A stretch of 64,000 bases of DNA, from contig JAFKMZ010000009.1 of assembly GCA_017305055.1 (NCBI GenBank), positions 37,087 to 101,086 of the forward strand, read 5' to 3'. The DNA comes from Lysobacterales bacterium. GTDB lineage: Bacteria > Pseudomonadota > Gammaproteobacteria > Xanthomonadales > Rhodanobacteraceae. Numbering within the stretch: the stretch's first letter is position 1; every line of letters starts with the position of its first letter. The notes beneath the pieces are model-generated. The model made no database searches. It was not told where the DNA came from and saw only the letters and a program-made list of their open reading frames with translations. A program made the translations under genes and the position numbers. Shown here piece after piece: positions 1 to 21,592 of this stretch.

Positions 1-774
1 GGCAACCCAGAGGCAGGGCGAGCCCTCCAGATGCCCAGGGACCGGCGGCCCGCCGCCCCAGCAGGTGAACTGGAAGAAGTTGCCGTCGTTGACCTCGAGC
101 GCACTCTGGAACGGCATGAAGACATCCTCCGGCCTGGCGTAGTAGCTCGTCTCGTAACCGTTGCCGGTGAAGCCGCCTTGCGCGTCGTAGAACAAGGGCG
201 TGGGCCGCCAGGGCTTCAGCACGCCGACGATGCGCACGTCGCTGTCCTTCAGACGCACGGTCCTGCCGACGCTGTCCGCGCCATCGAACAGCCGGTCGTT
301 GAGATCGGACGAGATCACCGCGACGCGTGCATGGCTCGTTTCATCGGCGGGCGTCCAGGCGCGGCCATAGGCGAACGGCACCTCGAACATCGGGAAGAAA
401 TCCGAGGTGGTGGCCAGCAGGGTCAGCTGCAGCGGTGGGCGATCCACGCCCGGCGCGCTCACCTTCACCGGACTCTGCACGATCAGGGCCTGGCGATCGG
501 CGCGCCGCGCGCTCCACAGCTCCAGCGCCGAGCGGTCGTCCATCACCGCGAGCGGATGCCTGGGGTTGTTCCAGTCGGCCGGCGTGGGATCCACCTGCGG
601 ATAGAAGATATGCGCGCTCTTGCCGGGCAGCGGGTCGCCGGAAAGCACGTGCATCACCGTCAGCGTCGTCATCGAGGCGCCAATGCCGACCGCGATGGCG
701 ATGATCATCAGCGCCGTCAGCATCTTGTTGCGCTTCAGGCTGTGCAGAGCAAGATCAAGATAATAGGCGAACAT
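1..774 (-). CDS. FtsX/MacB-type ABC permease, A class subtype 1 (partial, 3' end outside window)
   Basis: The first 258 codons of a permease read from 774 down to the window edge. It starts MFAYYLDLAL after a strong ribosome binding site (AGGAGG, 6-7 bases upstream), has one membrane segment at about residues 18-42, then the periplasmic MacB-type core domain. The subtype-1 signature ASMTTLTVMHVLSGDPLP is present. The two cysteines shared by all A-class permeases here are visible near the cut end (FTCWGGG and GSPCLW, 16 residues apart). The three C-terminal membrane segments lie outside the window. Its sequence is very close to the A permease at 4949-6268, suggesting a recent duplication. By the pairing pattern of the array, a B-class partner of the LEIAL subtype is expected just beyond the edge. 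Confidence 0.9.
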   Translation of the reverse strand, partial: MFAYYLDLALHSLKRNKMLTALMIIAIAVGIGASMTTLTVMHVLSGDPLPGKSAHIFYPQVDPTPADWNNPRHPLAVMDDRSALELWSARRADRQALIVQSPVKVSAPGVDRPPLQLTLLATTSDFFPMFEVPFAYGRAWTPADETSHARVAVISSDLNDRLFDGADSVGRTVRLKDSDVRIVGVLKPWRPTPLFYDAQGGFTGNGYETSYYARPEDVFMPFQSALEVNDGNFFQFTCWGGGPPVPGHLEGSPCLWVA

Positions 775-820
775 TGCATTCCTCCTGCATTTCCGGCTTC
801 CCAGCCAGGGATCCAAACAA

Positions 821-2080
821 CTAGACCGACCGCGTCGCCTCCACCGGCGACACCCTCGAGGCGCGCAGGGCCGGCGCCAACACCGCGCCCTGCCCCAGCG
901 CCAGCAACGCGACGACGCCGGCCAGCACGTACAGCAGCGACATCCGGTCCATCGCGAACTGCTGCATCAGCCACAGGTTCAGGCCCACCGCCAGGGCCGC
1001 GCCGAGCGCCACGCCCATTCCCGCGATCAGCAGGTTCTCGGCCTGGAAGTAGCGCAGGATGTCGGTGCGCGTCGCCCCCAGCGCGCGGCGGATCCCGATC
1101 TGCCTGCGCCGCTGGCCGACCCAGAAGCTAGTGAGGCCGACGATGCCGGCACCGGTGACGCACAGCAGGACCAGGCAGATCACGCCCATTAGTAGCGCCA
1201 TGCCGATGTCGGCACGATAGGCACGCGCGCGGATGTCGGAGTAGGGATAGATGCCGATGAAGCCAGCGAAGCCGTTGCGGATGACCCGCTGTGGGTTGGC
1301 CGCGACCAGCGCCTGGCGAGCATCGCGCATGGCTGCATCCAGCTGGCCCGGCTTGGCGCGCACCGCGGTACGCGTATAGGTGTCGTTGGGGAACGTCGGC
1401 AGCAGCGTCGAGTTCCAGTTGTAGTCACTCCCCCAGCCAACGTTGGGCGTCTGCAGGCGCGCGACGATGCCGATGATGGTGGTTGGCACCGCGCCACCAT
1501 TGAAATACACGGTCTTGCCCAAGGCATCACCCGCGGGAAACAGCTGGTCCGCCAGCGCCCTGGTGACGATGGCCACCGGCGGCTGCCAGTCGCCACCGCG
1601 GTCGTCGTGGGTGATCTCGCTGGCAGTGAAATTGCGGCCAGCGACCAGCCGCACGCCCAGGGTCTTCAGCAGATCCTCGTCGCCGCCGTAGAACGTCGTC
1701 GTGGCGGTACTGTGGTCCTGGTTCGGCTGCAAGCCGACCCCACCATTGTTCGAGGATTGCAGCAACGGCAGCGACCGGACTGGTGCCGCGGACGCCACAT
1801 CGGGCAGGCCGCGCAGGGTCATGAGGTCGCTGCGGAGCATGGCGTAGCGGCGCTCCAGCGACGCCGCATCGTTGCCGGTTGGGGCGTTGACGATCTGCTG
1901 CTGGATCAGGAACAGGTTCTGCTCGTCCATGCCGGTCGGCCGCTGCACGGTCGCGACGCGCTGGCCGATGATGAACACCGCGTTGCAGACGATCGCCAGG
2001 GTCAGTGCGATCTGCAACGTGATCAGGACGACGCCGGACTTGTGTTTCCTGAGCGCGGCAAGAATGGGGGGGAGTGTCAT
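821..2080 (-). CDS. FtsX/MacB-type ABC permease, B class subtype Q
   Basis: A 419-residue permease of the array, B class. One N-terminal membrane segment (about residues 17-40, containing LQIALTLAIVCNA) is followed by a periplasmic core domain and three C-terminal membrane segments. The cytoplasmic loop FWVGQRRRQIGIRRALGA is the part expected to contact the ATPase. It ends VSPVEATRSV, the subtype-Q tail. A GAGG ribosome binding site lies 7 bases before the ATG. It follows the subtype-2 A permease at 2234-3559, from which it is separated by 153 bp holding a palindromic repeat. No periplasmic cysteines are present, unlike the A class. The exported substrate cannot be predicted. Confidence 0.92.
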   Translation of the reverse strand: MTLPPILAALRKHKSGVVLITLQIALTLAIVCNAVFIIGQRVATVQRPTGMDEQNLFLIQQQIVNAPTGNDAASLERRYAMLRSDLMTLRGLPDVASAAPVRSLPLLQSSNNGGVGLQPNQDHSTATTTFYGGDEDLLKTLGVRLVAGRNFTASEITHDDRGGDWQPPVAIVTRALADQLFPAGDALGKTVYFNGGAVPTTIIGIVARLQTPNVGWGSDYNWNSTLLPTFPNDTYTRTAVRAKPGQLDAAMRDARQALVAANPQRVIRNGFAGFIGIYPYSDIRARAYRADIGMALLMGVICLVLLCVTGAGIVGLTSFWVGQRRRQIGIRRALGATRTDILRYFQAENLLIAGMGVALGAALAVGLNLWLMQQFAMDRMSLLYVLAGVVALLALGQGAVLAPALRASRVSPVEATRSV

Positions 2081-2114
2081 CTGCAGGCCTCGAGCTCAGA
2101 TTTTTGCGTTTGCT

Positions 2115-2198
2115 CGTCATTCCCGCGAAAGCGGGAATCCAGTGTTTCGGTGCCAGCAGATACAAAGTCTCTGGATCCCCGCTTGCGCGGGGATGACG
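2115..2198. repeat. Intergenic palindromic repeat (CGTCATTCCCGCG...CGCGGGGATGACG)
   Basis: An 84-bp element with two facing halves: CGTCATTCCCGCGAAAGCGG on the left and CCCCGCTTGCGCGGGGATGA (then CG) on the right, each itself a small hairpin. It lies in the 153-bp gap between two permease genes. A truncated relative is at 14334-14396. The sequence belongs to the widespread GTCATTCCCGCG / GCGGGAATCCAG type of dispersed intergenic repeat. Whether it affects transcript stability is unknown. Confidence 0.8.
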
Positions 2199-2233: not shown

Positions 2234-3559
2234 TCAATTCGATTTCAATTGCCACGCCGGCTGCACCGCCGACGCGCGCAAGGTGGGATACAGGCCGGCC
2301 AGCATCGTCGCCACGATCGCGACGATGAGCGTGGTGGCCAGCAGGGACACGTCCATGTGCGCCAACGCGGCAATCTCCGGCGGCATCACCCAGCCGACCC
2401 CGGCAATGCCCAGCCAGGTCAGCGCCAGTCCCAGCACGCCGCCCGCCAGCCCGACCATGCCGGCCTCGACCAGGAACTGGAGGTAGATCTCGCCACGCGA
2501 GGCGCCCAGCGCGCGGCGCACGCCGATCTCGCCGCTGCGGCGCATGAACTTGGCCAGCAGCAGGCCCATCACGTTGACCAGGCACACCAGCAGCAGGCCC
2601 ACCGCGACGTACAGCGAAACCTTCGTATCCGACGGCACCACGTGCCGCTCGGCCAGCCACGCCATCAGCCCACGCAGGCGCACCTCGGGCGGCCAGTTGA
2701 AACGGCCCGCACGCTGTTGCTCCAGCGAGTAATTGACCAGGAACTGGTGGTAGTCGCGGACTGCCGCGGCATCATCCAGCTGCACCATGAAGGAAATCCA
2801 CACGCACTCGGATTTCTGCAGGCCCTTGAAGCCCGACTCCGCCGGCGGCTGGTTGCAATTGGTACTGCCGTTGATGTTGGCGTCGTTGGCGATGGCGGTG
2901 TCGAACGGCAGGAAGATGTCGGCGGCCAATGGGGTGAAGCCACCGGTATTCACGACGTCATAGAACACCGGATGCGGATGCCAGTCGTCGGTGACGCCGA
3001 CCACGCGGTAGTCGTGGTGGCCGAAGGTGAGCATCCTGCCGACGCTGTCAGCGCCGCCGAACAGCATCCCGTTGAGTTGGCTGCTGATCACCGCGACCTG
3101 GGCACGATTCGCGTCCTCGGCGCCGCTCCAGCCGCCGCCGTAGGCAAACGGCACATCCAGCATCGGGAAGAACTCGCTGCCCACGGCCTCGCCGGCAATC
3201 AGCGTCAGCGACTGGTTGGCGGCCTTCGGAGCGACCGAATCGGCGATCTGGTACATCGCCGATTGGTATTTCGCCCGATGCGCGCGCATCAGCGCCACCG
3301 CATCGGTATAGCTCATCGCGCTGGGAGGCTCGGTGCTGTTGCTGCCCGGCTCGTGGCCGGTCGGTCCCCAGTTGTCGATCTGCGGCACGAAGAGCCGCGC
3401 CGACTTCTGCGGAATCGGGTCTCCCGATACCGCGCGGAACACCGACCACGTCGTCATCGACGCAGCGACGCCGAAACCGACGGTCAGCACCATCAGCGCC
3501 GTGAGCGCCTTGTTGCGCTTCAGGCTGCGCAGCGCGAGATCGAGGTAATAGCCGAACAT
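2234..3559 (-). CDS. FtsX/MacB-type ABC permease, A class subtype 2
   Basis: A 441-residue A-class permease starting MFGYYLDLALRSLKRN. The ATG at 3559 is preferred because GGAG sits 7 bases upstream; an in-frame TTG two codons earlier lacks such a site. The subtype-2 signature is TTWSVFRAVSGDPIPQKS followed by a core domain starting near FVPQID. The conserved cysteine pair is NCNQPP and SECVW (17 residues apart). The C-terminal part carries the loop SGEIGVRRALGAS and the tail PAWQLKSN. It is transcribed 51 bp after the B permease at 3611-4825. Its matching partner by subtype is the following B gene at 821-2080. Confidence 0.92.
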   Translation of the reverse strand: MFGYYLDLALRSLKRNKALTALMVLTVGFGVAASMTTWSVFRAVSGDPIPQKSARLFVPQIDNWGPTGHEPGSNSTEPPSAMSYTDAVALMRAHRAKYQSAMYQIADSVAPKAANQSLTLIAGEAVGSEFFPMLDVPFAYGGGWSGAEDANRAQVAVISSQLNGMLFGGADSVGRMLTFGHHDYRVVGVTDDWHPHPVFYDVVNTGGFTPLAADIFLPFDTAIANDANINGSTNCNQPPAESGFKGLQKSECVWISFMVQLDDAAAVRDYHQFLVNYSLEQQRAGRFNWPPEVRLRGLMAWLAERHVVPSDTKVSLYVAVGLLLVCLVNVMGLLLAKFMRRSGEIGVRRALGASRGEIYLQFLVEAGMVGLAGGVLGLALTWLGIAGVGWVMPPEIAALAHMDVSLLATTLIVAIVATMLAGLYPTLRASAVQPAWQLKSN

Positions 3560-3610: not shown

Positions 3611-4825
3611 TCACGCACTGCGTGTCGCCACTACTGGCGGCACGGCCGCGGCGCGCAGCGCCGGACCGAGCACCGCGAGCTGGCCGAGCGCCCACAACGC
3701 CATGGCGCCGAGCGGCAGGTAATACAGCGGCAGGCGCGGCAGCTCGTAGAACTTCATCAAGGTGAGGTTCAACGCAAACGCCAGTGCCATGCCCAGCACG
3801 ATGCCGCCGGTGACGATCAGGAAGTTCTCGGTCTGGAAGTAATGCAGGATGTCGCGCCGGGTGGCGCCGATGGCCCGGCGGACGCCGATCTGCCGACGCC
3901 GCTGCGCCACCCAGAAACTGGCCAGGCCGACGATGCCCAAGGCGGTGACCAGCAGCATGGCGGTGATCACGCCGACCAGCATGCCCGCCATGGCACGGTC
4001 GTTCTTGAACACGTCACGGCGCAGATCAGTCAGGGTATGACTGGCTTCCCGATCGATCACCACCTCCGGCACTGCCTTGGCAAGGGATGCGAGCGCATCG
4101 CGCAGCACGCGCGGCAAGTCCCCGGGACTGGCCCGCAACAGGTAGCTGCCCGTCAGGTACGGTCCTGGTTGGGCGGGCAGGAATACTGCCCATTGGCGCC
4201 GTTCCGCCGACCATCCCGTCGGATCGGGCCGGACCAGGTTCTTGAGCACGCCGACCACGCGGAAATGCGACTTCAGCATCCAGAATTCCTTGCCGAGCGG
4301 ATCGGCACCCGGCCACAAGTGTTCGGCCAGGGCCTGCGTGATCTGCACGCTGCCCTGGTCGGGCATGAAACCGGTGAACGCGTGAAAGTCATCGGCCTGC
4401 GGTGCACGCCCGGCGATGACCTTGGCGCCGAGTGCCCGCAGGCTGCCCGGACCACCCACGTAGAACTCGATCACGCCGCCAAAATGCTTGCCGGCGGCAT
4501 CGGTGGTGATTCCAGCGGTACCACGGCGGCTGCCGAATGGTATGGAATTGAGCAGGGACACCGACTCCACGCCGGGAACGGCGCGCAACGCGGCGAGTGC
4601 CCGCGCGTCAACGTCGGCCGCCTGGGCGGAGTCGTAGCCGGTCAGTTGCACCGTCGCGAGCGCAGCTTCATCCACGCCACTGTCGATGTGCATGGCCGTG
4701 ATGCGCTGGGAAATGATGAAACAGGCATTGCACAGCACCGCGCAGGCCAGCGCGATTTCCAGCGCGATCAGGGTCGTGGCCAGCCGATGCTTTTTCAGTG
4801 CCGCGAGTATGGGTTGAATCTGCAT
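3611..4825 (-). CDS. FtsX/MacB-type ABC permease, B class subtype E
   Basis: A 404-residue B-class permease. Residues 15-38 form the first membrane segment with the subtype-E motif LEIALACAVLCNA. The periplasmic core domain runs from about 40 to 275 and has no cysteine. Three membrane helices follow at about 278-307, 337-357 and 367-387, with the cytoplasmic loop QRRRQIGVRRAIGATRRDIL between the first two. The tail is VPPVVATRSA. AGGA lies 8 bases before the ATG. Its A-class partner at 4949-6268 precedes it, separated by 123 bp that hold two copies of a 50-bp tandem repeat. Confidence 0.92.
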   Translation of the reverse strand: MQIQPILAALKKHRLATTLIALEIALACAVLCNACFIISQRITAMHIDSGVDEAALATVQLTGYDSAQAADVDARALAALRAVPGVESVSLLNSIPFGSRRGTAGITTDAAGKHFGGVIEFYVGGPGSLRALGAKVIAGRAPQADDFHAFTGFMPDQGSVQITQALAEHLWPGADPLGKEFWMLKSHFRVVGVLKNLVRPDPTGWSAERRQWAVFLPAQPGPYLTGSYLLRASPGDLPRVLRDALASLAKAVPEVVIDREASHTLTDLRRDVFKNDRAMAGMLVGVITAMLLVTALGIVGLASFWVAQRRRQIGVRRAIGATRRDILHYFQTENFLIVTGGIVLGMALAFALNLTLMKFYELPRLPLYYLPLGAMALWALGQLAVLGPALRAAAVPPVVATRSA

Positions 4826-4855
4826 GACAAGTATCCTGGAAGTGCTCTCTTGAAG

Positions 4856-4948: not shown

Positions 4949-6268
4949 TCACAATGTCTTCAACTGCAGCGCCGGCGCCACCCCGCTGGCCCGCAGCGCA
5001 GGCAGGAAGCCAGCCGCCAGGCTGGCGGCAACGGCGACCGCGAAGGTCAGCCCGAACATGCCGAGGTCCAGGTGCGCGAGGTCGGCGTATTCGACCGGTT
5101 GCCGCCGCACCAGCCATAGGCCCGTCAGGGTCCGCAACCAGCCACCGATGCCGCCGACCACGCCGACCACGCCGGCCTCGACCAGGCATTGCGCGAAGAT
5201 CGCGCCGCGGCTGGCACCCAGCGCACGACGCACGCCGATTTCGCTGCTGCGGCGCAGGAACTTGGCCAGCAGCAGGCCGATCACGTTGAACAGGCAGATG
5301 GCCAGGAACGCAAACGCCAGCCAGGTTTGCAGCTTCACGTCACTGGGCACCACATGGTTGAACACCAGCCACTGCATGAGGCTTGGCATGCGGGTCTGGG
5401 TGCTGGCGAAACGCCCCAGCGCCTTCTGCTGCTGCGCGTAACTGGCAATGAAGGCGCGGTAGTCCGCCACCTTGGTCGCGTCGTCCAGTTGCACCCACAA
5501 GGCGACCCAGACACACGGGGCGTCCTGCAGGTGTCCCGGCGTGGCGACCTTGCCCCAACAGGTGAACTGCCAGAAATTGCCGGCGTTGACCTCCAGTCCG
5601 CTGAAAAACGGCATGAACACGTCTTCGGGCTTGTCGTAGAACGACGAGGTCTGGCCTTCGGCGAAACGCCCAGCACGCACGTCGTAGAAGAGCGGCGAGG
5701 GCCGCCACGTCTGCAGCACGCCGACGATCCGCACGTCGCTGTCCTTCAGACGCAGGATCTTGCCCACGCTGTCGGCACCGCCGAACAGGCGGTCGTTGAG
5801 GTCGGATGAAATCACCGCCACGCGCGCACGGCTGGCGGCATCGGCAGCAGTCCACGCGCTGCCGTACCGGAACGGTACCTTGAACATCGCAAAGAAGTCG
5901 GAGGTCGTGGCCAGCATCGGTACCATCAGCGGCGGCAAGCTGACATCCGGCGTGCGCACCTTGACCTCGCTGTTCGCGATCAAGGCCTGGCGGTCCGCCC
6001 GATGCGCGCTCCACAGATCCACCGCCGAGTGGTAGTCGAGCATGTCCAGCGGCCCGCCCTTGGCGTAGCCGGCCGGCGTGGCGTCCACCTGCGGATAGAA
6101 AATCTGCTGGCTGCGACCGGGCAACGGATCGCCCGACAGCAAGTGCATCACCGTCAGCGTGGTCATGCTCGCGCCGATGCCGACCGCGATCGCGAGGATC
6201 ATCAGCGCCGTCAACACCTTGTTGCGCTTCAGGCTGCGCAGCGCGAGATCAAGGTAGTACGCAAACAT
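4949..6268 (-). CDS. FtsX/MacB-type ABC permease, A class subtype 1
   Basis: A 439-residue A-class permease starting MFAYYLDLALRSLKRN. The ATG at 6268 is chosen because GGAGG lies 5-6 bases upstream and all other A genes begin at the same residue; an in-frame start 8 codons earlier is unlikely. The subtype-1 signature is TTLTVMHLLSGDPLPGRS. The cysteine pair is FTCWGK and APCVW (15 apart). The C-terminal part has the loop SSEIGVRRALGASRG and the tail PALQLKTL. It closely resembles the truncated A permease at 1-774, including the QFTCWG segment. The next gene (3611-4825) is its subtype-E partner. Confidence 0.92.
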   Translation of the reverse strand: MFAYYLDLALRSLKRNKVLTALMILAIAVGIGASMTTLTVMHLLSGDPLPGRSQQIFYPQVDATPAGYAKGGPLDMLDYHSAVDLWSAHRADRQALIANSEVKVRTPDVSLPPLMVPMLATTSDFFAMFKVPFRYGSAWTAADAASRARVAVISSDLNDRLFGGADSVGKILRLKDSDVRIVGVLQTWRPSPLFYDVRAGRFAEGQTSSFYDKPEDVFMPFFSGLEVNAGNFWQFTCWGKVATPGHLQDAPCVWVALWVQLDDATKVADYRAFIASYAQQQKALGRFASTQTRMPSLMQWLVFNHVVPSDVKLQTWLAFAFLAICLFNVIGLLLAKFLRRSSEIGVRRALGASRGAIFAQCLVEAGVVGVVGGIGGWLRTLTGLWLVRRQPVEYADLAHLDLGMFGLTFAVAVAASLAAGFLPALRASGVAPALQLKTL

Positions 6269-6349: not shown

Positions 6350-7579
6350 TCACACGCTCCGCGTCGCGACGACCGGCGGCACGGCGGCGGCGCGCAGCGC
6401 CGGGCCGAGCACGGCCAGTTGCCCGATCACCCACAACACCACTGCACCGACCGGAAAGTAGATCGCCGGCAGCCGCGGCAACTCGTAGTGCAGCATCAGG
6501 AACAGGTTGATGGCGTAGGCCAGCAGCATGCCGAGCGCGATGCCGAACGTGGCCAGCACGAAGTTCTCGGCCTGGAAGTAGTTGAGGATGTTGCGCCGGG
6601 TGGCACCCAGCGCGCGGCGCACGCCGATCATGCGCCGGCGTTGCGCGACCCAGAAACTCGCCAGTCCGACGATGCCGAGCGCCGTGACCGTCAGCAACGC
6701 GATGATCACGCCGACCAGGATGCCGGCCATGGCGCGGTCGTTCTCGAAGAACTTGCTGCGCACCTCGTCGTAGGTCCGCTGCCTGGTCACCACCCGCTGT
6801 GGATCCGCCTTCTTCAGCGCGGCGACCGCAGCCTTGAGCACGGCCTGGCGATCCTGCGGACGGGTGCGGATCAGATAGCTCTGGTTCTGACCGACGCCCA
6901 TGAACACCGGCAGGACCATGGAATAGTGCGCGGTGGCATCGTTGTATGCGTTGGCACGCGCCAGGTCAGCCAGTACGCCGACCACGCGCACGCCGACCGG
7001 GCCGATGTAGAACGTTCGGCCCAGCGGGTTCTGCCCTGGCCACAGGCGCTGCGCCATGGCCTGGGTGATCACGGTCACCGCCGGCAGCTGCTTGGCGTCG
7101 CCCGTGGCGAGCGCCTTCAGCACGACGTCCACGTTCGTGGCCTCATCCGCCTGCAGGTGCCGCCCCGCCACCAGGCGCGCACCCATGGTCTGCGGCAGAT
7201 CGAGACCGAAGTAAGTGCCGGCGTTGAGCGTGGGTTGGCGCTGCGCAAGGTCGAGCTTGATGCTCGAATTCGATGAGGATATCCCCAGCGGCACCTGGTT
7301 GGTCAGCGCCGCCGCCTGCACGCCAGGCACCTGCCGCAGCACGGCGAGGTCCTCCCTGGCCCGTGCATAGATGTCCGGCGACGGCTCGATCTCGGCCAGC
7401 TGGATCTGCACCAGTGCATGCTCGTCGATGCCCGTGGACATCTGCATGTGCTGCAGCCGCTGGCCGATCAGGAACACCGCATTGCAGACGATGGCGCAGG
7501 TCAGCGCGATCTCCAGGACGAGCAGGCTGGCCGGGATGCGGTGTCTGCGCAACGTGGAAAGTATCGGACGCCATTCCAT
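6350..7579 (-). CDS. FtsX/MacB-type ABC permease, B class subtype E
   Basis: A 409-residue B-class permease starting MEWRPILSTLRRHR. The first membrane segment carries LEIALTCAIVCNA. The periplasmic domain has no cysteine. The cytoplasmic loop is FWVAQRRRMIGVRRALGA and the tail is VPPVVATRSV. Only one base separates its ATG from the stop codon of the A permease at 7581-8888, so the two are almost certainly translationally coupled, which supports A-B pairing. Downstream, 81 bp with a GGAGAGG-type inverted repeat precede the next A gene. Confidence 0.92.
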   Translation of the reverse strand: MEWRPILSTLRRHRIPASLLVLEIALTCAIVCNAVFLIGQRLQHMQMSTGIDEHALVQIQLAEIEPSPDIYARAREDLAVLRQVPGVQAAALTNQVPLGISSSNSSIKLDLAQRQPTLNAGTYFGLDLPQTMGARLVAGRHLQADEATNVDVVLKALATGDAKQLPAVTVITQAMAQRLWPGQNPLGRTFYIGPVGVRVVGVLADLARANAYNDATAHYSMVLPVFMGVGQNQSYLIRTRPQDRQAVLKAAVAALKKADPQRVVTRQRTYDEVRSKFFENDRAMAGILVGVIIALLTVTALGIVGLASFWVAQRRRMIGVRRALGATRRNILNYFQAENFVLATFGIALGMLLAYAINLFLMLHYELPRLPAIYFPVGAVVLWVIGQLAVLGPALRAAAVPPVVATRSV

Positions 7580-7580
7580 G

Positions 7581-12834: not shown

Positions 12835-12879
12835 ATCAACGTTCCTTCACACCGCCCAATGGAGCCGGCTTTTCTGAGA

Positions 12880-12924: not shown

Positions 12925-14240
12925 CAATTGCTCTTCAGTTGCCAGGCTGGCTGCACGTTCGAGGCGCGCCAGGTCGGATACAGGCCGGCCAGCACCGTCG
13001 CCACCACCGCCACCAGCAGGGCCAGCGCCAGCAGCGACACATCCAGTCGCGCCAGGTCGGCGATGTCCTTGGGCAGCACCCAGCCGACGCTGGCCACCCC
13101 CGCGCCGGTAAGCAGCAGGCCGAGCACGCCGCCGGCGACGCCAACCATGCCGGCCTCGGTCAGGAACTGCACATAGATCGCCGCACGCGGCGCACCCAGG
13201 GCCCGGCGCACGCCAATCTCGCCGCTGCGGCGCAGGAACTTCGCCAACAACAGGCCCACCGTGTTGACCAGGCACACCAGCAGCAGCCCGAACGCCACCA
13301 GCAGCGACACCTTGGTATCGCTGGGCACCACATGCTGGCTCTCCAGCCACGCGGGCAGGTCGCGCAGGCGGTTGTTGGGCGGCCAGCTGAAGCGCCCGGA
13401 AGCCTGCTGCTGACGCGCGTAGCCGTCCAGATAGGTCCGGTAGGCCTGCACCGCAGCCGCATCGTCCAGCTCGACCATGTAGGCGATCCATACGCAGGGT
13501 GAATGCTGCAGCCCGACGAAGCCGGATTCCTCCGGCACCGCGTTGCAGTTGGTGTTGCCGTCGTTCGGGATGTCAGCCTGGATGGCAGTCTGGAACGGCA
13601 TGAACACATCGTCGGCATCGATGACGAAGCCGCCGCCGTTGACCACGTCGTAGTAGCGCGGCTGCGGGTTCCAGTGGTCGAGCACACCCACCACGCGGTA
13701 CTCGTGGCCTTCCAGATTCACGCTCTTGCCTACGCTGTCCACACCGCCAAACAGTTTCTGGTTGAGCTTGCTGTTGATGACCACGACCTGCGCGCGATTG
13801 GTGTCGTCACTTGCGCTCCAGGCGCTGCCGTACTTGAACGGCACATCCAGCATCGGGAAGAATTCGCTGTACACCGCATGCCCGCTGACATTCAGCGGAT
13901 GCTTGCCGGCACCCGTGGGGACCACGGACGGCGCAATCTGGTACATCGCGGACTGCCGCTTGGCGCGGTGGTCGCGCATCAGGGCCACGGCATCGGTGTA
14001 GTCCATGGCATTGGGCGGCTCGCCATCGGGATCGCGGCCACTCGGCCCCCACATGTCGATCTGCGGTACGAACAACTGCGCCGACTTCCACGGGATCGGG
14101 TCACCCGACACGGCGCGGAACACCGACCACGAGGTCATCGACGCAGCCACGCCAAAGCCGATGGCCAGCACCATCAGGATGGTGAGGCCCGGACTGCGCT
14201 TCAGGCTGCGCAAGCCCAATTCAAGGTAGTAGGCGAACAT
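12924..14240 (-). CDS. FtsX/MacB-type ABC permease, A class subtype 2
   Basis: A 438-residue A-class permease starting MFAYYLELGLRSLKRS at 14240, with GGAG 7 bases upstream. An open frame extends well upstream, but the added residues are read through an intergenic repeat and do not match the family. The subtype-2 signature is TSWSVFRAVSGDPIPWKS. The cysteine pair is TNCNAV and SPCVW (17 apart), with ESGFVGLQ between, nearly identical to the A permease at 2234-3559. The tail is PAWQLKSN. It lies 169 bp after the beta-lactamase gene. Confidence 0.92.
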   Translation of the reverse strand: MFAYYLELGLRSLKRSPGLTILMVLAIGFGVAASMTSWSVFRAVSGDPIPWKSAQLFVPQIDMWGPSGRDPDGEPPNAMDYTDAVALMRDHRAKRQSAMYQIAPSVVPTGAGKHPLNVSGHAVYSEFFPMLDVPFKYGSAWSASDDTNRAQVVVINSKLNQKLFGGVDSVGKSVNLEGHEYRVVGVLDHWNPQPRYYDVVNGGGFVIDADDVFMPFQTAIQADIPNDGNTNCNAVPEESGFVGLQHSPCVWIAYMVELDDAAAVQAYRTYLDGYARQQQASGRFSWPPNNRLRDLPAWLESQHVVPSDTKVSLLVAFGLLLVCLVNTVGLLLAKFLRRSGEIGVRRALGAPRAAIYVQFLTEAGMVGVAGGVLGLLLTGAGVASVGWVLPKDIADLARLDVSLLALALLVAVVATVLAGLYPTWRASNVQPAWQLKSN

Positions 14241-14396: not shown

Positions 14397-14409
14397 GTTC
14401 AGGCGCTCC

Positions 14410-15312
14410 TCACGAACCCGCGGCCTTCGCCGCTGCTGTGGCACGTTCTTTAGCCAGTTGTGCCTCGAAACTTTTCTGTGCCGCTTGCGCGTACCGGCGG
14501 CAGCCGGCTGTATCGACCAGCGCATCGGCATGGCCCTGCCCGCGCCTGTCCACACGCGCCCAGAAATCCACCGCTTCCGGATGCGGGTTGAGCGCGATGT
14601 CGCAGGGCAGCGCCGCCACCAGCGCGAAGCTGTGCTCGAAATCCGCCACGATGTCGGGGTACCTGGCGTTGCCGAGCAGTTGGTAGTCGGGTGCCGAAAG
14701 GCTGCCGATATCGACCAGGTGCAGGCAGCGCTGGTCCTCGCAGGAGGTCCAGGTCCAGGTCGTGTTGCCCTTCGTATGCCCCGGCGTCACGTGCGCGGTC
14801 AGCTGCAGATCACCCAGGTGCAGCGTCTCTCCGTCGCGCACAGTGCGGCTCGCCACCACCGGCGCGAACGGAAAGTCGTCGCCATATTGCGGATCGCCCA
14901 GGCCGCCGCGCGCCAGCAGCGGCGCGTCCGCGGCGCTCACGATGACCTGGGCGCCGGTGTCGTGGGCGAGCCGCGCGATGTCCCCGGCGTGGTCGAAATG
15001 CGCGTGCGTGTTGAGTATCCATTTGATGTCGTGCAGGTCGACGCCGAGGCTGCGGATGTTGGCCTCGATCAGCGGCGCATCCCCCGGTACGCCACCGTCG
15101 ATCAGCACGTTGCCGCCGGGAGCGGTGATCAGCAGCACGCTGAGGCCGCGCGGGCCGACGAACCAGGTGTTGCCATGGACGCGCACGGGTTTCTGCGGCG
15201 CCGTCCAGGACGGCCATTTCGCCAGCGTCGCGCGCTCGGTCGCCGGCATCTGCGCGAACGCACAGGGTGCGCACAGGCCGAGGGCAAGCATGGCTGTGAT
15301 CAAAGGACGCAT
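14410..15312 (-). CDS. Subclass B3 metallo-beta-lactamase
   Basis: A 300-residue protein with an N-terminal signal peptide (about residues 1-20, ending AFA). The zinc ligands of the B3 subclass are all present: H103, H105, D107 and H108 in HAHFDH, H179 in TPGHTKG and H244 in NPHP. The segment SLSAPDYQLLGNARYP closely follows L1 of Stenotrophomonas, as do LLARGG and ALPCD. The start at 15312 has AAGGAG 7 bases upstream. It is the only non-transporter gene inside the permease array, co-directional, 61 bp after a B permease. By family it should hydrolyse beta-lactams with two zinc ions in the periplasm; whether it acts on antibiotics or on a substrate of the transporter is unknown. Confidence 0.9.
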   Translation of the reverse strand: MRPLITAMLALGLCAPCAFAQMPATERATLAKWPSWTAPQKPVRVHGNTWFVGPRGLSVLLITAPGGNVLIDGGVPGDAPLIEANIRSLGVDLHDIKWILNTHAHFDHAGDIARLAHDTGAQVIVSAADAPLLARGGLGDPQYGDDFPFAPVVASRTVRDGETLHLGDLQLTAHVTPGHTKGNTTWTWTSCEDQRCLHLVDIGSLSAPDYQLLGNARYPDIVADFEHSFALVAALPCDIALNPHPEAVDFWARVDRRGQGHADALVDTAGCRRYAQAAQKSFEAQLAKERATAAAKAAGS

Positions 15313-15373: not shown

Positions 15374-16612
15374 TCACACCGGCCTGGTGGCTTCGACCGG
15401 CGACACGCGCGAGGCGCGCAGTGCCGGTGCCAGCACCGCGCCCTGGCCAAGCAGCAGCAGCATGACCACGCCGGCGGCCACATACGCCAACGACAGGCGG
15501 GCCGTCTCGAACTGGGTGATCATCCAGCCGTTGATGAGCAGCGCCAGCAACACGCCCAGCAACACGCCGCCGGTCGAGATCAGGAAGTTTTCGGTAAGAA
15601 AGTAGTTGAGGATGTCGCGCCTGGTCGCCCCGAGCGCCCGGCGCACGCCGATCTGCTTGCGCCGCTGGCCTACCCAGAAACTGGTGAGACCCACGATGCC
15701 CGCGGCGGTAATCGCCAGCAGCACGGCACAGATGATGCCCATCAGGATCGCCAGGCCACGATCGCTGTCGAAGACCTTGTGGCGAATGGCAGCGTAGTCC
15801 TGGATGCCGTCTTTCGGACTGATGATGCGCAGGCGGCTTTGCGCATACAGTGCCTTGGGCGCCTCGCGCATGGCAGCGGCGAGCTGGCCGGGCTTGGCGC
15901 GCACGATGTAGTAGATGCCACGCGAATCGTCCGCTCGCGCTGGCCAGATCAACGACTGTCCGGCGTAGGACTGGTTCCATTGATCCACGCCCTGCCGATG
16001 CAGCGTATCGACGATGCCAACGATGGTGCTGGGCGTGAGGCCCATCGCATAAAAGCTCTTGCCCAGCGCCGAACCGTCGGGATAGAGACGGTCGGCCAAG
16101 GCCTGGCTGACGATGACCACCGGTGGTATGACGACCTGCTGGGTACCCATCTCGGTGACTTCGTCGGGACGGAAATTGCGTCCCGCGACCAGTCGCAGCC
16201 CCAAGGTGTCGAGCAGATGTTCGTCGCTGTAGTAAACCGCCGCATCGGTGGTCGGCTGGACCTGGTCGGGCGTCATGGTGACGAAGTTGTCCCATCCGCC
16301 GCCCTGCAGCGGATATCCGGTGGAGGGGGCGGCGTCGCGCACGCTGGGCAGTTGCCGCAGCGCGAGAAGATCGGCCTGCACCTGGGCGTCGATCTGCGGG
16401 GTTGGCCGGTCGACGGCCCACTGGTTCTGGATCACGAAGACGGCGGCCTCATCGACACCACTTGGTTCGGACAGGTTGGACAGCCGCGCATGCATGATGA
16501 ACAGCGCATTGCACACGATGGCGAGCGTCAGCGCGATCTGCAGCGCGATCAGCGCGGTGCCCGCCTTGTGCCGGCGCAGTGCTGTGAGGATGGGACGGAT
16601 CTGCAGGTTCAT
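15374..16612 (-). CDS. FtsX/MacB-type ABC permease, B class subtype Q
   Basis: A 412-residue B-class permease reading MNLQIRPILTALRRHKAG. Two consecutive ATGs occur; the second (16612) has the better spacing to AGGAG. The first membrane segment holds LQIALTLAIVCNA, the periplasmic domain lacks cysteines, the loop is FWVGQRRKQIGVRRALGA and the tail VSPVEATRPV. It lies about 10 bp after its A partner at 16623-17933. It belongs to the first pair after the TolC gene and is followed by the beta-lactamase gene. Confidence 0.92.
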   Translation of the reverse strand: MNLQIRPILTALRRHKAGTALIALQIALTLAIVCNALFIMHARLSNLSEPSGVDEAAVFVIQNQWAVDRPTPQIDAQVQADLLALRQLPSVRDAAPSTGYPLQGGGWDNFVTMTPDQVQPTTDAAVYYSDEHLLDTLGLRLVAGRNFRPDEVTEMGTQQVVIPPVVIVSQALADRLYPDGSALGKSFYAMGLTPSTIVGIVDTLHRQGVDQWNQSYAGQSLIWPARADDSRGIYYIVRAKPGQLAAAMREAPKALYAQSRLRIISPKDGIQDYAAIRHKVFDSDRGLAILMGIICAVLLAITAAGIVGLTSFWVGQRRKQIGVRRALGATRRDILNYFLTENFLISTGGVLLGVLLALLINGWMITQFETARLSLAYVAAGVVMLLLLGQGAVLAPALRASRVSPVEATRPV

Positions 16613-16622
16613 CATCCTCTCC

Positions 16623-17933
16623 TCAGCTCGACTTCAGCTGCCACGCCGGCTGCACGTGGGCCGCCCGCCACGACGGGTAGAACGCCGCACAGACGGTGGC
16701 GGCGATGGCCACGATCAAGGTAAGCCCCACCAGCGAGACATCGAGTTGCGCCAGCTGCGCGATCTGCGGCGGGAACAGGATGCCAACGCCGGCCACACCC
16801 ACCGCAGTGAGCAGCAGGCCCAACACGCCGCCGGCCAGGCCCACGGTGCCGGCCTCTATCAGGTACTGCGTGTAGATCTCCCGCCGCGATGCGCCCAATG
16901 CACGGCGTACGCCGATCTCACCCGCGCGGCGCAGGAACTTCGCCAGCAGCAGACCCACAGTGTTGATCAGGCATATCAGGAAGAAACCCAATGCCACGGC
17001 CAGCGAGATACGACTCTCCGGCGGCACCACGTGCTCATGGTCCAGCCACTGCATGACATCACGCAGCCGCACGTTCGGCGGCCAGGCAAAGCGGCCGGCC
17101 TTCTGCTGATCGGCAGCATAGGCTTCGAGGAAGCGGTGATAGCGTGCGACGGCGGCGGCGTTGTCCAGCTCCACCCACGCCGTAATCCACACGCAGTTGC
17201 TCTGCAGATAGTCATCCCAACCGGTGTAGGCGAGCTTGCCGCGGCAGCTGTTGCTGCCGTTGGTGCGCATACGCAGGTCCAGCGCGCGGCTGTACGGCAG
17301 GTAGAAATCCGGCTCGTCGGCAAACCCGCTGGTGCTGAACAAGTCGTAGAAGCGCGGGCGCGGATTCCAGTGATTGGTGACACCCACCACACGGTAATCG
17401 TGGCCACCGAGATTGATCGTGCGGCCCGTACTGTCGGCACCGCGAAACAGCTTCTGGTTGAGTTCGTCGCTGATAACCACGTCGGCAGCACGCGCGTCGT
17501 CATCCTGTGCGCGCCAAGCACCGCCGTAGCGGAACGGTACCTCGAACATTGGAAAGAAGTCGCTGCCCACGGCATAGCCGCTGACGGCGACCGGAAGCTC
17601 GCGGTTGCCGCCAGGCAGCACCGACAGGGCTACCGGATACAGCAGAGTCTGACGCTTCGCCTCGTGCGCGCGCAGCAGCGCCATCGCATCGATGTAGTTG
17701 AGCGCCTCCGCCGGTTCACCCTTGAGGTTCTGCTGCGGCCCCCAGGCATCGATCTGCGGCGTGAACAACTGCGCGGACTTGTCCGGGATCGGATTGCCCG
17801 ACACGGCACGGAACACCGAATACGTGATCATCGACGCGGCCACGCCGAAACCGATGGCCAATACCATCAGGGCAGTCAGCGCCGGATTGCGCCTGAGGCT
17901 GCGCAAGCCGAGATCGAGGTAATACGCAAACAT
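16623..17933 (-). CDS. FtsX/MacB-type ABC permease, A class subtype 2
   Basis: A 436-residue A-class permease, first of the array, starting MFAYYLDLGLRSLRRN with GGAGG 7 bases upstream; this rules out the in-frame start 7 codons earlier. The signature is ITYSVFRAVSGNPIPDKS. The cysteine pair is NSCRGK and SNCVW (17 apart). The loop is AGEIGVRRALGASRR and the tail PAWQLKSS. It follows the TolC gene by 109 bp in which no repeat or terminator is evident, so read-through from the adaptor-ATPase-TolC genes is likely. Confidence 0.92.
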   Translation of the reverse strand: MFAYYLDLGLRSLRRNPALTALMVLAIGFGVAASMITYSVFRAVSGNPIPDKSAQLFTPQIDAWGPQQNLKGEPAEALNYIDAMALLRAHEAKRQTLLYPVALSVLPGGNRELPVAVSGYAVGSDFFPMFEVPFRYGGAWRAQDDDARAADVVISDELNQKLFRGADSTGRTINLGGHDYRVVGVTNHWNPRPRFYDLFSTSGFADEPDFYLPYSRALDLRMRTNGSNSCRGKLAYTGWDDYLQSNCVWITAWVELDNAAAVARYHRFLEAYAADQQKAGRFAWPPNVRLRDVMQWLDHEHVVPPESRISLAVALGFFLICLINTVGLLLAKFLRRAGEIGVRRALGASRREIYTQYLIEAGTVGLAGGVLGLLLTAVGVAGVGILFPPQIAQLAQLDVSLVGLTLIVAIAATVCAAFYPSWRAAHVQPAWQLKSS

Positions 17934-18042: not shown

Positions 18043-19398
18043 TCACTGCAACAGGCGGTTCACTTCCTCCAGGTCATGCACATCGATCTCGCCCGCAGCC
18101 TGCTTGAGCAGAAGTTTGTTGAGCACGAACTGGTGGCGCACGACGGTGTACTCGCTTTGCACGTTGGCCAGCGTGCCGATCGCCACCACCACGTTGGTCA
18201 AACTCTGCGTGCCGATCTCGTAGCCGGCGCGCATCGAGGCCACGGCCTTGCGCGCGGCTTCCACCGAGGTGCGCGCGACCTGCACCTGCTCGATGCCGTC
18301 GACCACCAGGTTGTAGTAGTTGGCCGCGTCGCGGGCCGCCTGACGGCGCTGGCTTTCCAGCACGCCAGTGTCCTCGTCGCGTTGCGCCAGTGCGCGCCGT
18401 ACCTGCGAGCGGGTCAGGCCACCGCTGAAGATCGGCACGTTCAGGGTCAGGCCCACGGTGGTGACGCCCGGGCCATAGCCGGGACCGTTGGCCGGCGAAC
18501 CCGGAACCGCGCTCGACCAGCTGCCGAACTTGCCGTACTGCAGGCGTGCATCCAGTGTCGGCAGGCGTCCGGCACGTGCGGCCGAAACCAGGTGCCGGTC
18601 CGCGCTCACCGTGTAGCGCGCCGCCAGCACCACCGGATTGCTGTCCATGGCCGCGTCGACCCAGGTCTTGGCGTTCGCCGGCTCGGGCGGCGTCAGGGGC
18701 AGGTCCTCGCGCAGCTTCTTGAGCGTGCCGGTGGGCTGGCCGGTGATCTGCTCCAGCGCATGCCGCGCATCCTTCAGCTGCGCCTCGGCGCCGATGCGCT
18801 GCGACTTGATGTACAGGTAGTACGCCTGCGACTGGCTGACGTCCGAAGCCATGGCCAGGCCATTCTTGAAGCGCACGCTGGACTGGTCGAACTCCTGCTT
18901 GTACGCGTCCTCGTAGGAACGGAACACGTCCAGCTCGTCCTGCGCCACCAGCACATTGAAGTACGCATCGGCGACCCGCACGCACAGGCGTTGCGTGGCC
19001 GCGCGCAGCGTCTCGTCGCCGGCGTCACGGCTGGCATGTGCCGCACGCAGTTGTGCGATCGCAGCCACGTCGAGCAGGGGCTGGCTGAGCGTGCCGCCCA
19101 GGTTGCGCTCCCGCGTATGCCCGGCCGCACCGGTGGTGATGATGTTGCCGTTGGAACTGGTCGTGGTGCCACTGCCGCCGTGGATCTGTTCCAGCCCCAG
19201 CCCCAGCGACAACTGCGGCAACAGGGCAGAGCGCGCCTGCGGCACGTCCTCGGCACTCACCCGCTGCGCCGCGCTGGCCGTGCTCAGCACGGGGTCATTG
19301 GCCACGGCCTGGCGATAGGCATCCATGAGGTCGTCGGCGTGACCGGCCAGGGGCGCCAGGGCCAGGCCAAGCAGGAGTGGCGACAGGAACGTGCGCAT
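18043..19398 (-). CDS. TolC-family outer membrane efflux protein
   Basis: A 451-residue outer membrane channel with a signal peptide (MRTFLSPLLLGLALAPLAGHA). The DLMDAYRQAVANDPVL start of the mature protein is typical of TolC proteins, followed by two outer-membrane-efflux repeats with long helical stretches. The protein should form the trimeric exit duct through which the adaptor and permeases push substrate across the outer membrane. Its ATG lies 8 bp after the ATPase stop codon, indicating a common transcript. It is the only TolC gene seen with the thirteen permeases. Confidence 0.93.
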   Translation of the reverse strand: MRTFLSPLLLGLALAPLAGHADDLMDAYRQAVANDPVLSTASAAQRVSAEDVPQARSALLPQLSLGLGLEQIHGGSGTTTSSNGNIITTGAAGHTRERNLGGTLSQPLLDVAAIAQLRAAHASRDAGDETLRAATQRLCVRVADAYFNVLVAQDELDVFRSYEDAYKQEFDQSSVRFKNGLAMASDVSQSQAYYLYIKSQRIGAEAQLKDARHALEQITGQPTGTLKKLREDLPLTPPEPANAKTWVDAAMDSNPVVLAARYTVSADRHLVSAARAGRLPTLDARLQYGKFGSWSSAVPGSPANGPGYGPGVTTVGLTLNVPIFSGGLTRSQVRRALAQRDEDTGVLESQRRQAARDAANYYNLVVDGIEQVQVARTSVEAARKAVASMRAGYEIGTQSLTNVVVAIGTLANVQSEYTVVRHQFVLNKLLLKQAAGEIDVHDLEEVNRLLQ

Positions 19399-19406: not shown

Positions 19407-20129
19407 TCAGCCACCCTGCGCCTGCTCATGCGCGCGCGCCTCGGTATGGAAGCGCGGCTCCTCGGCCAGATCGACCACCTGGCCATCGATGATGTGCACG
19501 TTGCGCTGGGCCCGCGCGGCCAGCTCCTGGTCGTGGGTGACCATGACGATGGTGGCGCCGTCGCGATGGATGTTCTCCAGCAGCTCCAGCACGCCGCGCG
19601 CCATCTGCGTGTCCAGGTTGCCGGTGGGCTCGTCGGCGAGCAGCAGGCGCGGACTGCCGGCCAGCGCGCGCGCGATCGCCACGCGCTGCTGCTGGCCGCC
19701 CGACAGCTCGGCCGGGTAGTGCTTGAAGCGCGAGGCCAGGCCGACACGCTCGAGCGCATCCATGATGCGCTGCTTGCGCTCGGCTCCCTTCATGCCGCGA
19801 TAGCGCAGCGGCACCTCGATGTTGTCGAACACGTTGAGGTCGGGGATCAGGTTGAAGGCCTGGAAGATGAAGCCGATCTTCTCGTTGCGGATCTTCGAAC
19901 GGGCGTTGTCGTTGAGGTTGCTGACCTCGATGCCGTCGAGGTGGTATTCACCACCGCTGAAACTCTCCAGCAGTCCGGCGATGGTCAGGAAGGTGGTCTT
20001 GCCGGAGCCCGACGGGCCGGTGACGGCGACAAATTCCCCCTCCTTCACGTCGATGTTGAAATCGCGCAAGGCGTAGGTTTCCACCACTTCGGTGCGGTAG
20101 ACCTTGGACAGGTGGGTCATCTTCAACAT
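19407..20129 (-). CDS. MacB/LolD-type ABC transporter ATP-binding protein
   Basis: A 240-residue ATPase with Walker A GPSGSGKT (residues 38-45), Q-loop FIFQAFNLIPDL (88-99), signature LSGGQQQR (142-149), Walker B LLLADEP (162-168) and switch histidine VTHD (197-200). It belongs to the MacB/FtsE/LolD class that drives mechanotransmission rather than classical transport. The ATG at 20129 has AAGGGA upstream. Unlike true MacB, the ATPase and permease are separate proteins. It is the only ATPase in the cluster, so it presumably energises all permease pairs. An acidic, glutamine-rich tail follows the catalytic core. Confidence 0.95.
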   Translation of the reverse strand: MLKMTHLSKVYRTEVVETYALRDFNIDVKEGEFVAVTGPSGSGKTTFLTIAGLLESFSGGEYHLDGIEVSNLNDNARSKIRNEKIGFIFQAFNLIPDLNVFDNIEVPLRYRGMKGAERKQRIMDALERVGLASRFKHYPAELSGGQQQRVAIARALAGSPRLLLADEPTGNLDTQMARGVLELLENIHRDGATIVMVTHDQELAARAQRNVHIIDGQVVDLAEEPRFHTEARAHEQAQGG

Positions 20130-20249: not shown

Positions 20250-20258
20250 TCCTCGCGT

Positions 20259-21530
20259 TCAACTGCTGATCACGACTTTCGCCGCGCCCTTGAAGTTGTC
20301 GGTGCCGGAAATCACGATGCGCTGGCCAGCCTGCAGGCCCTGCAGGATTTCCACCTTGTCGATGCTGGAGGCGCCGACGCGGATCGGCGTCTTGGTGGCA
20401 ATGTCGCCGTTCACCACGTAGGCGTAGGCGCCGCCGGACTCGTCGACGAAGGAGCCACGCTGCACGGTCAGCACGTTGTCGCGATGGTCGAGCAGCACGC
20501 GCACGGACAGGCGCTGGTTCTGCCGCAGCTGCTTGGGCGTGGCGCCGTCGAAGCGCAGGCGGGCGGCCACCTGGCCGTTGACCACCTCCGGCGAGATCGC
20601 GCTGACCAGGCCCTTCCAGGTATGCCCATTGCCGCTGATCTCGCCGGCCATGCCGATGCCCAGGTCGCGGGCGAAGCTCTCCGGCACCTGCATCTCCACC
20701 TGCAGCGCCGACAGGTCGATCACACTCAGCAGCTGCGCATCCTTGGCCACGGTGGCGCGTTCGGCGATGAACAATTGCCCGACCTGGCCGTCGACCGGCG
20801 ACTTCACCTGCAGGTCGTCGACCTGGCGCTGCAGGTCGGCCACCAGCAGCAGCTGCCGCTCGTGCGCAAGTTTCTTGGCCTTGACGTCGAACTGCAGGCT
20901 GTCGTTGTCCAGGCCCAGGTTGGCCTTGGCGTGCGCGGCGGCAATGCGTGCCTTCTCCAGGGAGTCCTTGGCCTTGTCCACGTCCATGTTGGAGACCGCA
21001 CCCTTGGCAAAGGCCTTCTGGTAGCGGTCCAGGTTGCGTTCGGCGGTCTGCTCGTCGATGTGCGCGTTGTCGTAGGTTTCCTGCTGCTGCGCGCGCTCCT
21101 TGCGGGCATCGATCTGCGCACGCTGATAGGCAACCGCCATGGCGTCGGCGTTGCTCTGCTCCTGGGCCAGCTTGTTGGTCAACTCGGGACTGACGATGGT
21201 GGCCAGCACCTCGCCGCGCTTGACCGTGTCGCCGGCATGCACCTTGAGCGTGACCGCGCCGCCCGAGGTGGCATACAGGGTCGGGCTGACCGCCGCGACG
21301 ACCTTGCCCTCGGCCGCGATGTCGCGCACGAACGGGCCACGCTCCACGGTGGCGAAGGACAGGCGCGAGGCGCTGACCGACGCGGAAGCCGAAAACAGCC
21401 GGCCGATGCGTGGTGCCAGCACCGCCAGCAGGGCAAGTACCAGGACGCCGGCGCCAATCAGGATGAGCTGGCGGCGGCGGTTGGGTTTGACTTCGACCAG
21501 GCGGTCGGTGGCGGAGGTATCGCGGATCAT
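20259..21530 (-). CDS. Periplasmic adaptor (MacA/HlyD membrane-fusion protein)
   Basis: A 423-residue adaptor starting MIRDTSATDR at 21530 (AGGGA upstream). A cytoplasmic N-terminus is followed by a membrane anchor at about residues 26-45, a biotinyl-lipoyl domain (GGAVTLKVHAGDTVKRGE), a long helical hairpin (about 115-215) and C-terminal beta domains ending in the MacA-like GLQAGQRIVISG. It should connect the inner-membrane permeases to the TolC channel. It is the first gene of the transport operon and lies behind a sigma-54-type promoter. No second adaptor is present for the many permeases. Confidence 0.93.
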   Translation of the reverse strand: MIRDTSATDRLVEVKPNRRRQLILIGAGVLVLALLAVLAPRIGRLFSASASVSASRLSFATVERGPFVRDIAAEGKVVAAVSPTLYATSGGAVTLKVHAGDTVKRGEVLATIVSPELTNKLAQEQSNADAMAVAYQRAQIDARKERAQQQETYDNAHIDEQTAERNLDRYQKAFAKGAVSNMDVDKAKDSLEKARIAAAHAKANLGLDNDSLQFDVKAKKLAHERQLLLVADLQRQVDDLQVKSPVDGQVGQLFIAERATVAKDAQLLSVIDLSALQVEMQVPESFARDLGIGMAGEISGNGHTWKGLVSAISPEVVNGQVAARLRFDGATPKQLRQNQRLSVRVLLDHRDNVLTVQRGSFVDESGGAYAYVVNGDIATKTPIRVGASSIDKVEILQGLQAGQRIVISGTDNFKGAAKVVISS

Positions 21531-21574
21531 GTCGTCCCTGCCTGCCGCGCGACGCGCGGCCCCAAGCAGTGCCG

Positions 21575-21592
21575 TTGCAACCGCCGTGCCAA
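21575..21592 (-). promoter_or_regulatory. Sigma-54 (RpoN) promoter of the efflux operon
   Basis: The minus strand reads TTGGCACGGCGGTTGCAA. This matches the -24/-12 consensus TGGCAC-N5-TTGC, with GG and GC exactly 10 bases apart. Transcription would start near 21565, about 35 bases before the adaptor ATG. Such promoters need an enhancer-binding activator, for which candidate sites lie upstream at 21652-21712. Confidence 0.8.

Follow-up and report, generated by a model that had tools for sequence, protein, structure and literature searches.

A probable sigma54-controlled MacAB-TolC-like exporter with one ATPase and seven permease pairs in a Rhodanobacteraceae bacterium

How a single ATPase could drive a long row of different permeases is the question raised by an operon on contig C58 (JAFKMZ010000009.1) of the 3.5-Mb genome of a Lysobacterales bacterium (family Rhodanobacteraceae; GCA_017305055.1). 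The stretch of DNA analysed, referred to as the window, comprised 64,000 nucleotides (nt) (G000:C58:37087-101086). All operon genes were located on the minus strand, and their transcription order was adaptor, ATPase, TolC channel, then permeases B1 A1 to B7 A7. Its carriers are soil bacteria related to Rhodanobacter. The operon probably encodes a sigma54-controlled, MacAB-TolC-like exporter whose single ATPase homodimer, adaptor and TolC are shared by many alternative permease heterodimers. This conclusion was based on the layout of the operon, its recurrence in relatives, the co-diversification of the paired permeases, the pair types found across genera and the lack of a close second ATPase. 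From the sequences we infer the formation of heterodimers, the docking of the shared ATPase on them, the kind of substrate and the binding of the regulator.

The first gene encoded a periplasmic adaptor of the HlyD/MacA type (20259..21530, ATG at 21530; Pfam PF16576 and PF13437, HlyD_D23/HlyD_3), whose relatives had 423 amino acids (aa). An ATP-binding subunit separate from the permeases (19407..20129; Pfam PF00005, ABC_tran) and a TolC-family outer-membrane channel (18043..19398; Pfam OEP; TIGR01844, 296.6 bits) followed. The array began with permease B1 (16623..17933; Pfam MacB_PCD and FtsX) and permease A1 (15374..16615; Pfam FtsX and MacB_PCD), which matched the N-terminal and the C-terminal half of TIGR03434, respectively, and the same halves were matched by B3 (10271..11578) and A3 (9050..10270). 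The FtsX domains of B3, A3 and the other permeases were detected with PF02687, namely in B2 (12924..14240), A2 (11578..12834), B4 (7581..8888), A4 (6350..7579), B5 (4949..6268), A5 (3611..4825), B6 (2234..3559), A6 (821..2080), B7 (5' part in the window at 1..774; complete gene C58 36535-37860) and A7 (outside the window, C58 35301-36521). Also outside the window and on the same strand, a sigma54-type response regulator (C58 33907-35250; PF00158, 220 bits) was located 3' of A7 and a histidine kinase (C58 32472-33857) 3' of the regulator. Neighbouring operon genes were spaced by -1 to 169 nt.

The genome-wide PF02687 search revealed 14 consecutive FtsX domains, one per permease gene, in C58:35328-54086, which formed seven alternating pairs with B before A in 7/7 pairs. 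Thirteen of the permeases were wholly or partly inside the window (B1-B6, A1-A6 and the 5' part of B7). An earlier note on this DNA had described a single adaptor, ATPase and TolC followed by 13 permeases in the window, and this description was borne out by the Pfam and FtsX domain searches. Its expectation that the array continues was right as far as B7 was completed and A7 added; the array was not open-ended, since extension past position 1 reached its end 1.8 kb beyond the window, at the response regulator and histidine kinase, with a total of 14 permeases. Collapse or mis-joining of the assembly, considered in the same note as a possible source of the array, was rejected because the copies were diverged (B proteins 44-71% and A proteins 37-63% identical to each other within the window genome) and arrays recurred in many assemblies, including the one-contig genome G024 with five pairs.

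The recurrence of the operon was surveyed in named genomes with models built from the window genes, and the best 80 of 96 adaptor loci were annotated, mostly from Rhodanobacter, Dyella, Frateuria, Fulvimonas and Luteibacter, with two from Rhizobacter. Adaptor, ATPase, at least one B and at least one A were found in 77/80 loci, and the remaining three (L055, L060 and L086) were cut by contig ends. The general layout was adaptor-ATPase-(TolC)-(BA)n-response regulator-histidine kinase, with n from 1 to 11. One pair was found in Rhizobacter (L087 and L088) and in two Luteibacter loci (L067 and L077), two pairs in ten Luteibacter loci and one Rhodanobacter assembly (L021), and three pairs in Pinirhizobacter (L079); another Rhodanobacter assembly (L016) contained two A and three B pieces. 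In addition, 20 long arrays with 5 to 11 A-type copies were fetched, which were picked for their many copies in earlier scans and came in part from the same genomes as the named loci. The longest array was that of Fulvimonas sp. R45 (G052), with 22 permeases in 11 pairs, and at least 10 pairs were counted in R. glycinis MO64 (G051) before the fetched stretch ended. In the sister family, which we take to be Lysobacteraceae, exactly one A-type gene per genome was found in 31 of 40 genomes, two to six in 6 and none in 3. The seven single-pair loci fetched from this family had the order adaptor-ATPase-B-A-response regulator-histidine kinase, and the three fetched arrays had 4 or 5 pairs. A plasmid search with one A permease gave distant matches only (Pseudoalteromonas and Gemmatirosa).

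The two-component system at the end of the arrays would also suit a different role, in which the pairs are FtsEX- or BceAB-like mechanotransmitters or sensors, the shared ATPase serves signalling or target shielding, and the terminal kinase reads their state. The response regulator was present in 17/17 of the named loci that reached the array end (17 of 77) and after the array in 17/20 long arrays (G051 and G072 run off the fetched stretch), and separate pairs were found beside other sensors (BlaI and M56 in L003, M56 in L152, LytTR in L004). Such a role is nevertheless unlikely, as the adaptor and ATPase in all 77 permease-holding named loci, and TolC between ATPase and B1 in 21 of them, are the parts of a tripartite exporter, and the best solved-structure match of both A and B was MacB, with LolC/LolF, YtrF and BceB weaker. 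Hydropathy of nine A and nine B proteins showed four hydrophobic segments in both, with a periplasmic domain of 232-266 residues between segments 1 and 2.

ATPase genes were compared within and between genomes. The next best match to the operon ATPase in the window genome was only 43% identical, that is, no close second copy was present. A hidden ATPase adjoining the array was rejected by the ABC_tran search, the flanking genes and the genome-wide comparison of ATPase identity; additional ATPase genes just outside the window, which the earlier note had named as a threat to its proposal, were not found beside the array. Among 25 genomes compared, the A-type permease occurred together with an ATPase of at least 65% identity in 20 (G005 with a partial match at a contig end and G008 with a flagged stop), neither was found in 3, the permease alone was found in 2 (the fragmented G011 and G033 with a weak permease match), and the ATPase alone in none. 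Of the nine B/A pairs counted in the window genome, seven formed the array and the two others were on C48 and C80. No intact ATPase or adaptor of the operon type was found beside away-from-array pairs in 12/12 loci (L003, L004 and L150-L159), which were chosen from places found in permease scans of the window genome, its relatives and the sister family. In a tree of joined B and A sequences, the C48 pair fell into a group with eight in-array pairs from other genomes (SH-aLRT 100), and the C80 pair grouped with in-array pairs of Fulvimonas R45 and Rhodanobacter PCA2 and 7MK24 (SH-aLRT 99). Thus, a pair type located in the array of one genome sits elsewhere, without a motor gene, in another. A truncated ATPase remnant was detected beside the pair of L150 (L150:9636-10008, minus strand), whose genome (G157) holds a five-pair array (L146) with a full ATPase.

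It is very unlikely that each pair is driven by a different ATPase encoded elsewhere and that the array is a mere storage place. Other ATPases do exist, with 46 ABC_tran matches in the window genome; against this stand the permease and operon ATPase that were together or both missing in 23/25 genomes, the occurrence of pairs without an ATPase gene both inside the array and away from it, and the single ATPase that precedes the array in each of the 77 named loci and 20 long arrays.

The relation between the two members of each pair was revealed by their distances. Over 128 pairs (16 arrays, nine named loci and the two separate pairs of the window genome), the B and A distances correlated with r = 0.936, which is not a test statistic because the rows are related, compared with 0.033 on average and 0.119 at most when partners were reshuffled 1000 times within genomes. 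Four of the 20 arrays (G007, G016, G018 and G056) were omitted because they contained copies that were broken, lone or unclear. The correlation ruled out free mixing of the two types, and B and A instead diversify together as fixed pairs. The best matches of window type 1 were at array position 1 or 2 in 14/15 other arrays, type 2 had its best matches at positions 1-3 in 15/15, and the tree of joined B and A showed pair types common to several genera; for pair 6 of the window no clear orthologue was found in this tree. Among the nine paralogues of the window genome, the mean identity of the cytoplasmic loop was 71% (B) and 78% (A), compared with 43% (B) and 32% (A) for the periplasmic domain. 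This contrast fits a putative common docking surface with divergent heads. The dN/dS values of 22 comparisons, 12 of them on six of the seven window pairs, were 0.055-0.351, and those of the partners were 0.155 (ATPase), 0.17-0.20 (adaptor) and 0.27-0.30 (TolC), which indicates purifying selection on the copies compared. Simple amplification for dosage or by drift, with functionally alike pairs, is also very unlikely, for although copy number varied from 1 to 11 among relatives and some copies were broken, the pairs are old as judged from their identities, their types are common across genera with types 1 and 2 near the array head, and they are under purifying selection with variation concentrated in the periplasmic domains.

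The control of the operon was predicted from its upstream region. A sigma54 (-24/-12) promoter, TGGCACGGCGGTTGC (21577..21591, minus strand), was the only mismatch-free match in the 64 kb and ended 46 nt from the adaptor start codon. A perfect palindrome, TGTCCGCGGACA (21658..21669), the only perfect copy in the window, started 78 nt upstream of the promoter start and is a proposed enhancer site for the response regulator that the operon itself encodes. Among 100 loci with complete upstream sequence (some of them duplicates), the promoter matched at 9/10 or more positions in 98 and perfectly in 82, the exceptions being L067 and L089; in the control, a perfect match occurred in 2/1911 random stretches. 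The palindrome core TCCGCGGA was present in 83/83 distinct operon upstream regions with a promoter of at least 9/10 (0.2 expected), and the full 12-base palindrome in 81 of them. In 78/80 named loci, Rhizobacter included, the perfect palindrome occurred exactly once, near the adaptor start. The combined palindrome-promoter pattern was detected in 22/41 relatives (all of the window's genus) and 44/59 family genomes, with 0 in the reversed control. Only the perfect sigma54 site was informative, because one-mismatch matches in the window were at chance level (9 found, 8.56 expected); palindromes with up to 2 mismatches numbered 12 against 6.1 expected.

Later pairs seem to have no sigma54 promoters of their own, as only 1/269 sites before them was perfect. 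Between window positions 1 and 20000, no sigma70 promoter was found against 2.1 expected, and simple terminators numbered 5 against 9.5 expected. The features of a sigma54 two-component system were present, including a regulator with a sigma54-interaction domain, a -24/-12 promoter and an upstream palindrome, and the conserved position of the palindrome suggests that it is bound by the operon's regulator.

In the proposed mechanism, each B/A pair would form an eight-helix heterodimer with its own two periplasmic domains, and whichever pair is present would offer its conserved cytoplasmic loops as the docking surface for the shared ATPase. The periplasmic domains of the pair would pick the periplasmic substrate, which ATP-driven movement would then push out via the shared adaptor and TolC. 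The kinase and regulator at the operon end would turn on the whole operon via the palindrome and sigma54 promoter, and the same switch probably also controls a small membrane peptide in Rhodanobacteraceae.

Several observations weigh against a shared-motor exporter of this form. A second ATPase of 51-55% identity was found in three relatives of the same genus (G003:C16:55096, G009:C1:1156334 and G006:C28:47468), and another cellular ATPase could serve some pairs. The tree of joined B and A was made by a quick method, the residue composition of C48 was flagged, and its away-from-array pairs came from the window genome only. The cytoplasmic loop aligned well with MacB too, and since it resembles that of MacB anyway, its conservation is no proof of a shared motor. 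TolC was located inside the operon in 10/20 long arrays and outside it in most named loci, and hence is not a constant operon member; of the modular exporter in the earlier note, the single adaptor and ATPase with modular B/A pairs stood, with the recurrence in relatives and purifying selection in its favour, and the fixed place of the channel did not. The G016 array (L102/L103, G016:C14, about 556500) had a shortened terminal A and no regulator within the next 6.5 kb, in contrast to every other array followed to its end, and other arrays contained broken or lone copies (broken B in G007 and G056, lone A in G018). The perfect palindrome was missing from 6/10 sister-family loci (L140-L145) and present in L146-L149. 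Finally, L164 (about 3004, G004:C7) was the sole away-from-array pair seen with the operon control sites, its upstream sequence containing a palindrome, a sigma54 site scoring 9/10 and a short remnant of a permease, and 12 others had neither palindrome nor promoter.

The same control pattern led to a small peptide gene. Among 36 distinct combined sites in L160-L207, of which L160-L177 were selected as combined sites away from the operon, 15 were before an adaptor, 20 before the peptide gene and one before neither. The peptide has 28-69 residues with a conserved hydrophobic start, and a two-cysteine tail was present in 9/12 aligned members. Two members searched gave no Pfam match and an NCBIfam match at chance level only; we regard the peptide as a new family of small membrane peptides. 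It was detected in 39/59 Rhodanobacteraceae genomes, some hits containing stops, and a combined site was found at most 300 nt upstream in 32/38 places (36 genomes, two counted twice, with the three weakest genomes omitted). The palindrome and sigma54 promoter before peptide genes were observed within Rhodanobacteraceae. The peptide occurred in 31/36 genomes with two or more A-type genes compared with 3/15 with one (Fisher p 1.2e-5) and, by genus, in 14/17 compared with 1/6 (p 0.009); this comparison covered the 59 genomes except 7, and A-type counts stopped at 4 per genome. One genome without an A-type gene still had the peptide. The copy in the window genome (G000:C21:17484-17577; L161:2985-3078) consisted of the hydrophobic part only, and its relatives were in L162-L207. 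In several genomes the peptide genes adjoined M16 or M3 peptidases, or an esterase. The peptide may work with the pump as its partner, or may be one of its substrates in other species.

Taken further, the predicted exporter might follow a plug-in principle, with one motor unit for up to 11 operon heads and others scattered in the genome. Each head would handle a different peptide-like compound, and a single sigma54 switch would govern the production of the heads together with a small membrane peptide dedicated to them. This extension is tentative, and the sequence data leave its chances somewhat short of even. If true, it would represent a combinatorial defence or secretion machine, similar to shared-ATPase importers but acting across both membranes. 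By analogy, the plug-in logic would explain how the orphan permeases of the ADOP type ('acidobacterial duplicated orphan permeases', TIGR03434), present in dozens to more than 100 copies per genome in Acidobacteriota and Bacteroidota, are powered. Relatives with 1, 2, 3 and 5-11 pairs offer a tractable test case for how orphan permeases without an ATPase work, and the finding adds a sigma54 regulon that includes a new family of small peptides.

The components of the predicted exporter are of the MacB/type VII kind. Descriptions of tripartite pumps usually give each adaptor and channel one transporter, and in MacB the ATPase is fused to one permease that forms a homodimer. The operon shares with MacAB-TolC, a type VII ABC system, the MacB_PCD and FtsX permeases, the four membrane segments, the large periplasmic domain, the adaptor and TolC; it differs in that the ATPase is a separate gene facing seven (up to 11) distinct B/A pairs. 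According to PMC5985334, the periplasmic substrates exported by MacAB-TolC include the peptide toxin STII, and in E. coli the pump increases resistance to colistin and bacitracin. In the model given there, STII reaches the periplasm through Sec, acquires disulfides and exits via MacAB-TolC.

With ADOP, the pairs share the likeness of B to residues 7-401 and of A to about 410-801 of the model (B1, A1, B3 and A3); here, however, the halves are separate genes, the four proteins scored 159-196 bits against a cut-off of 622.3, and a motor operon is attached. The literature gives 102 ADOP copies in one acidobacterial genome (PMC10564751), and 28 and 33 copies, annotated as of unknown function, in two Dyadobacter genomes (PMC11573002). 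The ATPase and adaptor matched the DarD and DarC models of the darobactin exporter DarBCD, DarD being the best NCBIfam match of the ATPase, but both scores were below the equivalog cut-offs (DarD 258.8 of 375; DarC 85.6 of 450). The Dar system has a single permease gene, and LolCDE is not known to have an adaptor or TolC. Like the operon, LolCDE combines two distinct MacB/FtsX-type permeases with one separate ATPase, as stated in PMC8277102, but it has one pair only and moves lipoproteins.

Group II ECF transporters are importers with a shared ATPase. One ATPase for several permease systems is also described for MceG of Mycobacterium (PMC9947336) and for MsiK in Gram-positive sugar uptake (PMC8427247). 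These are importers, whereas here an export machine would share ATPase and adaptor, with its heads lined up in one operon. Among the matches listed in literature searches, most subscription journals being outside their coverage, no tripartite exporter that combines a single ATPase with several permease pairs in a row was found, in agreement with the earlier note, which knew of no such layout.

The genes near the pairs pointed to periplasmic peptides or peptide-like antibiotics as candidate substrates, and are only a pointer because they were counted without a background rate. A subclass B3 metallo-beta-lactamase gene, overlooked in the earlier note, was located between A1 and B2 (14410..15312, minus strand; NF033105, 334.6 bits, cut-off 240). 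This position inside the array was found in 1/20 long arrays, that of the window, and a related gene was located 1.1-1.8 kb upstream of the adaptor in 11/80 named loci, 10 of them Dyella. A DUF885 gene was within 7/20 arrays and an alpha/beta hydrolase with S33 likeness in 2/20 (Pfam was run on one of each). S9 peptidase and BlaI/BlaR1-like genes were found beside separate pairs, and an AMP-binding enzyme, which we read as NRPS-like, a penicillin amidase and an ABC exporter beside the pair of L150. Ankyrin genes in two arrays and a carboxylesterase beside a peptide gene did not fit a peptide or beta-lactam theme.

In L003:8221-13856, genes for a BlaI-type repressor and for an M56 peptidase resembling BlaR1 preceded the separate pair, and an S9/DPPIV-type peptidase gene adjoined it (Pfam). 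The same arrangement was observed in L152:5228-10224 (M56 by Pfam, BlaI by likeness) and in L155:1861-6857 (BlaI and M56 by likeness), and we read these three pairs as a differently regulated copy of the same permease module. Short palindromic repeats, in our reading of the REP type, were located in the array gaps 4826-4948 (B5-A5), 12835-12923 (B2-A2), 2081-2233 (B6-A6) and 14241-14409 (metallo-beta-lactamase-B2). Elsewhere in the window, at about 36217-37569, one 569-aa frame contained tandem ATP-binding domains and is presumably an ABC-F protein.

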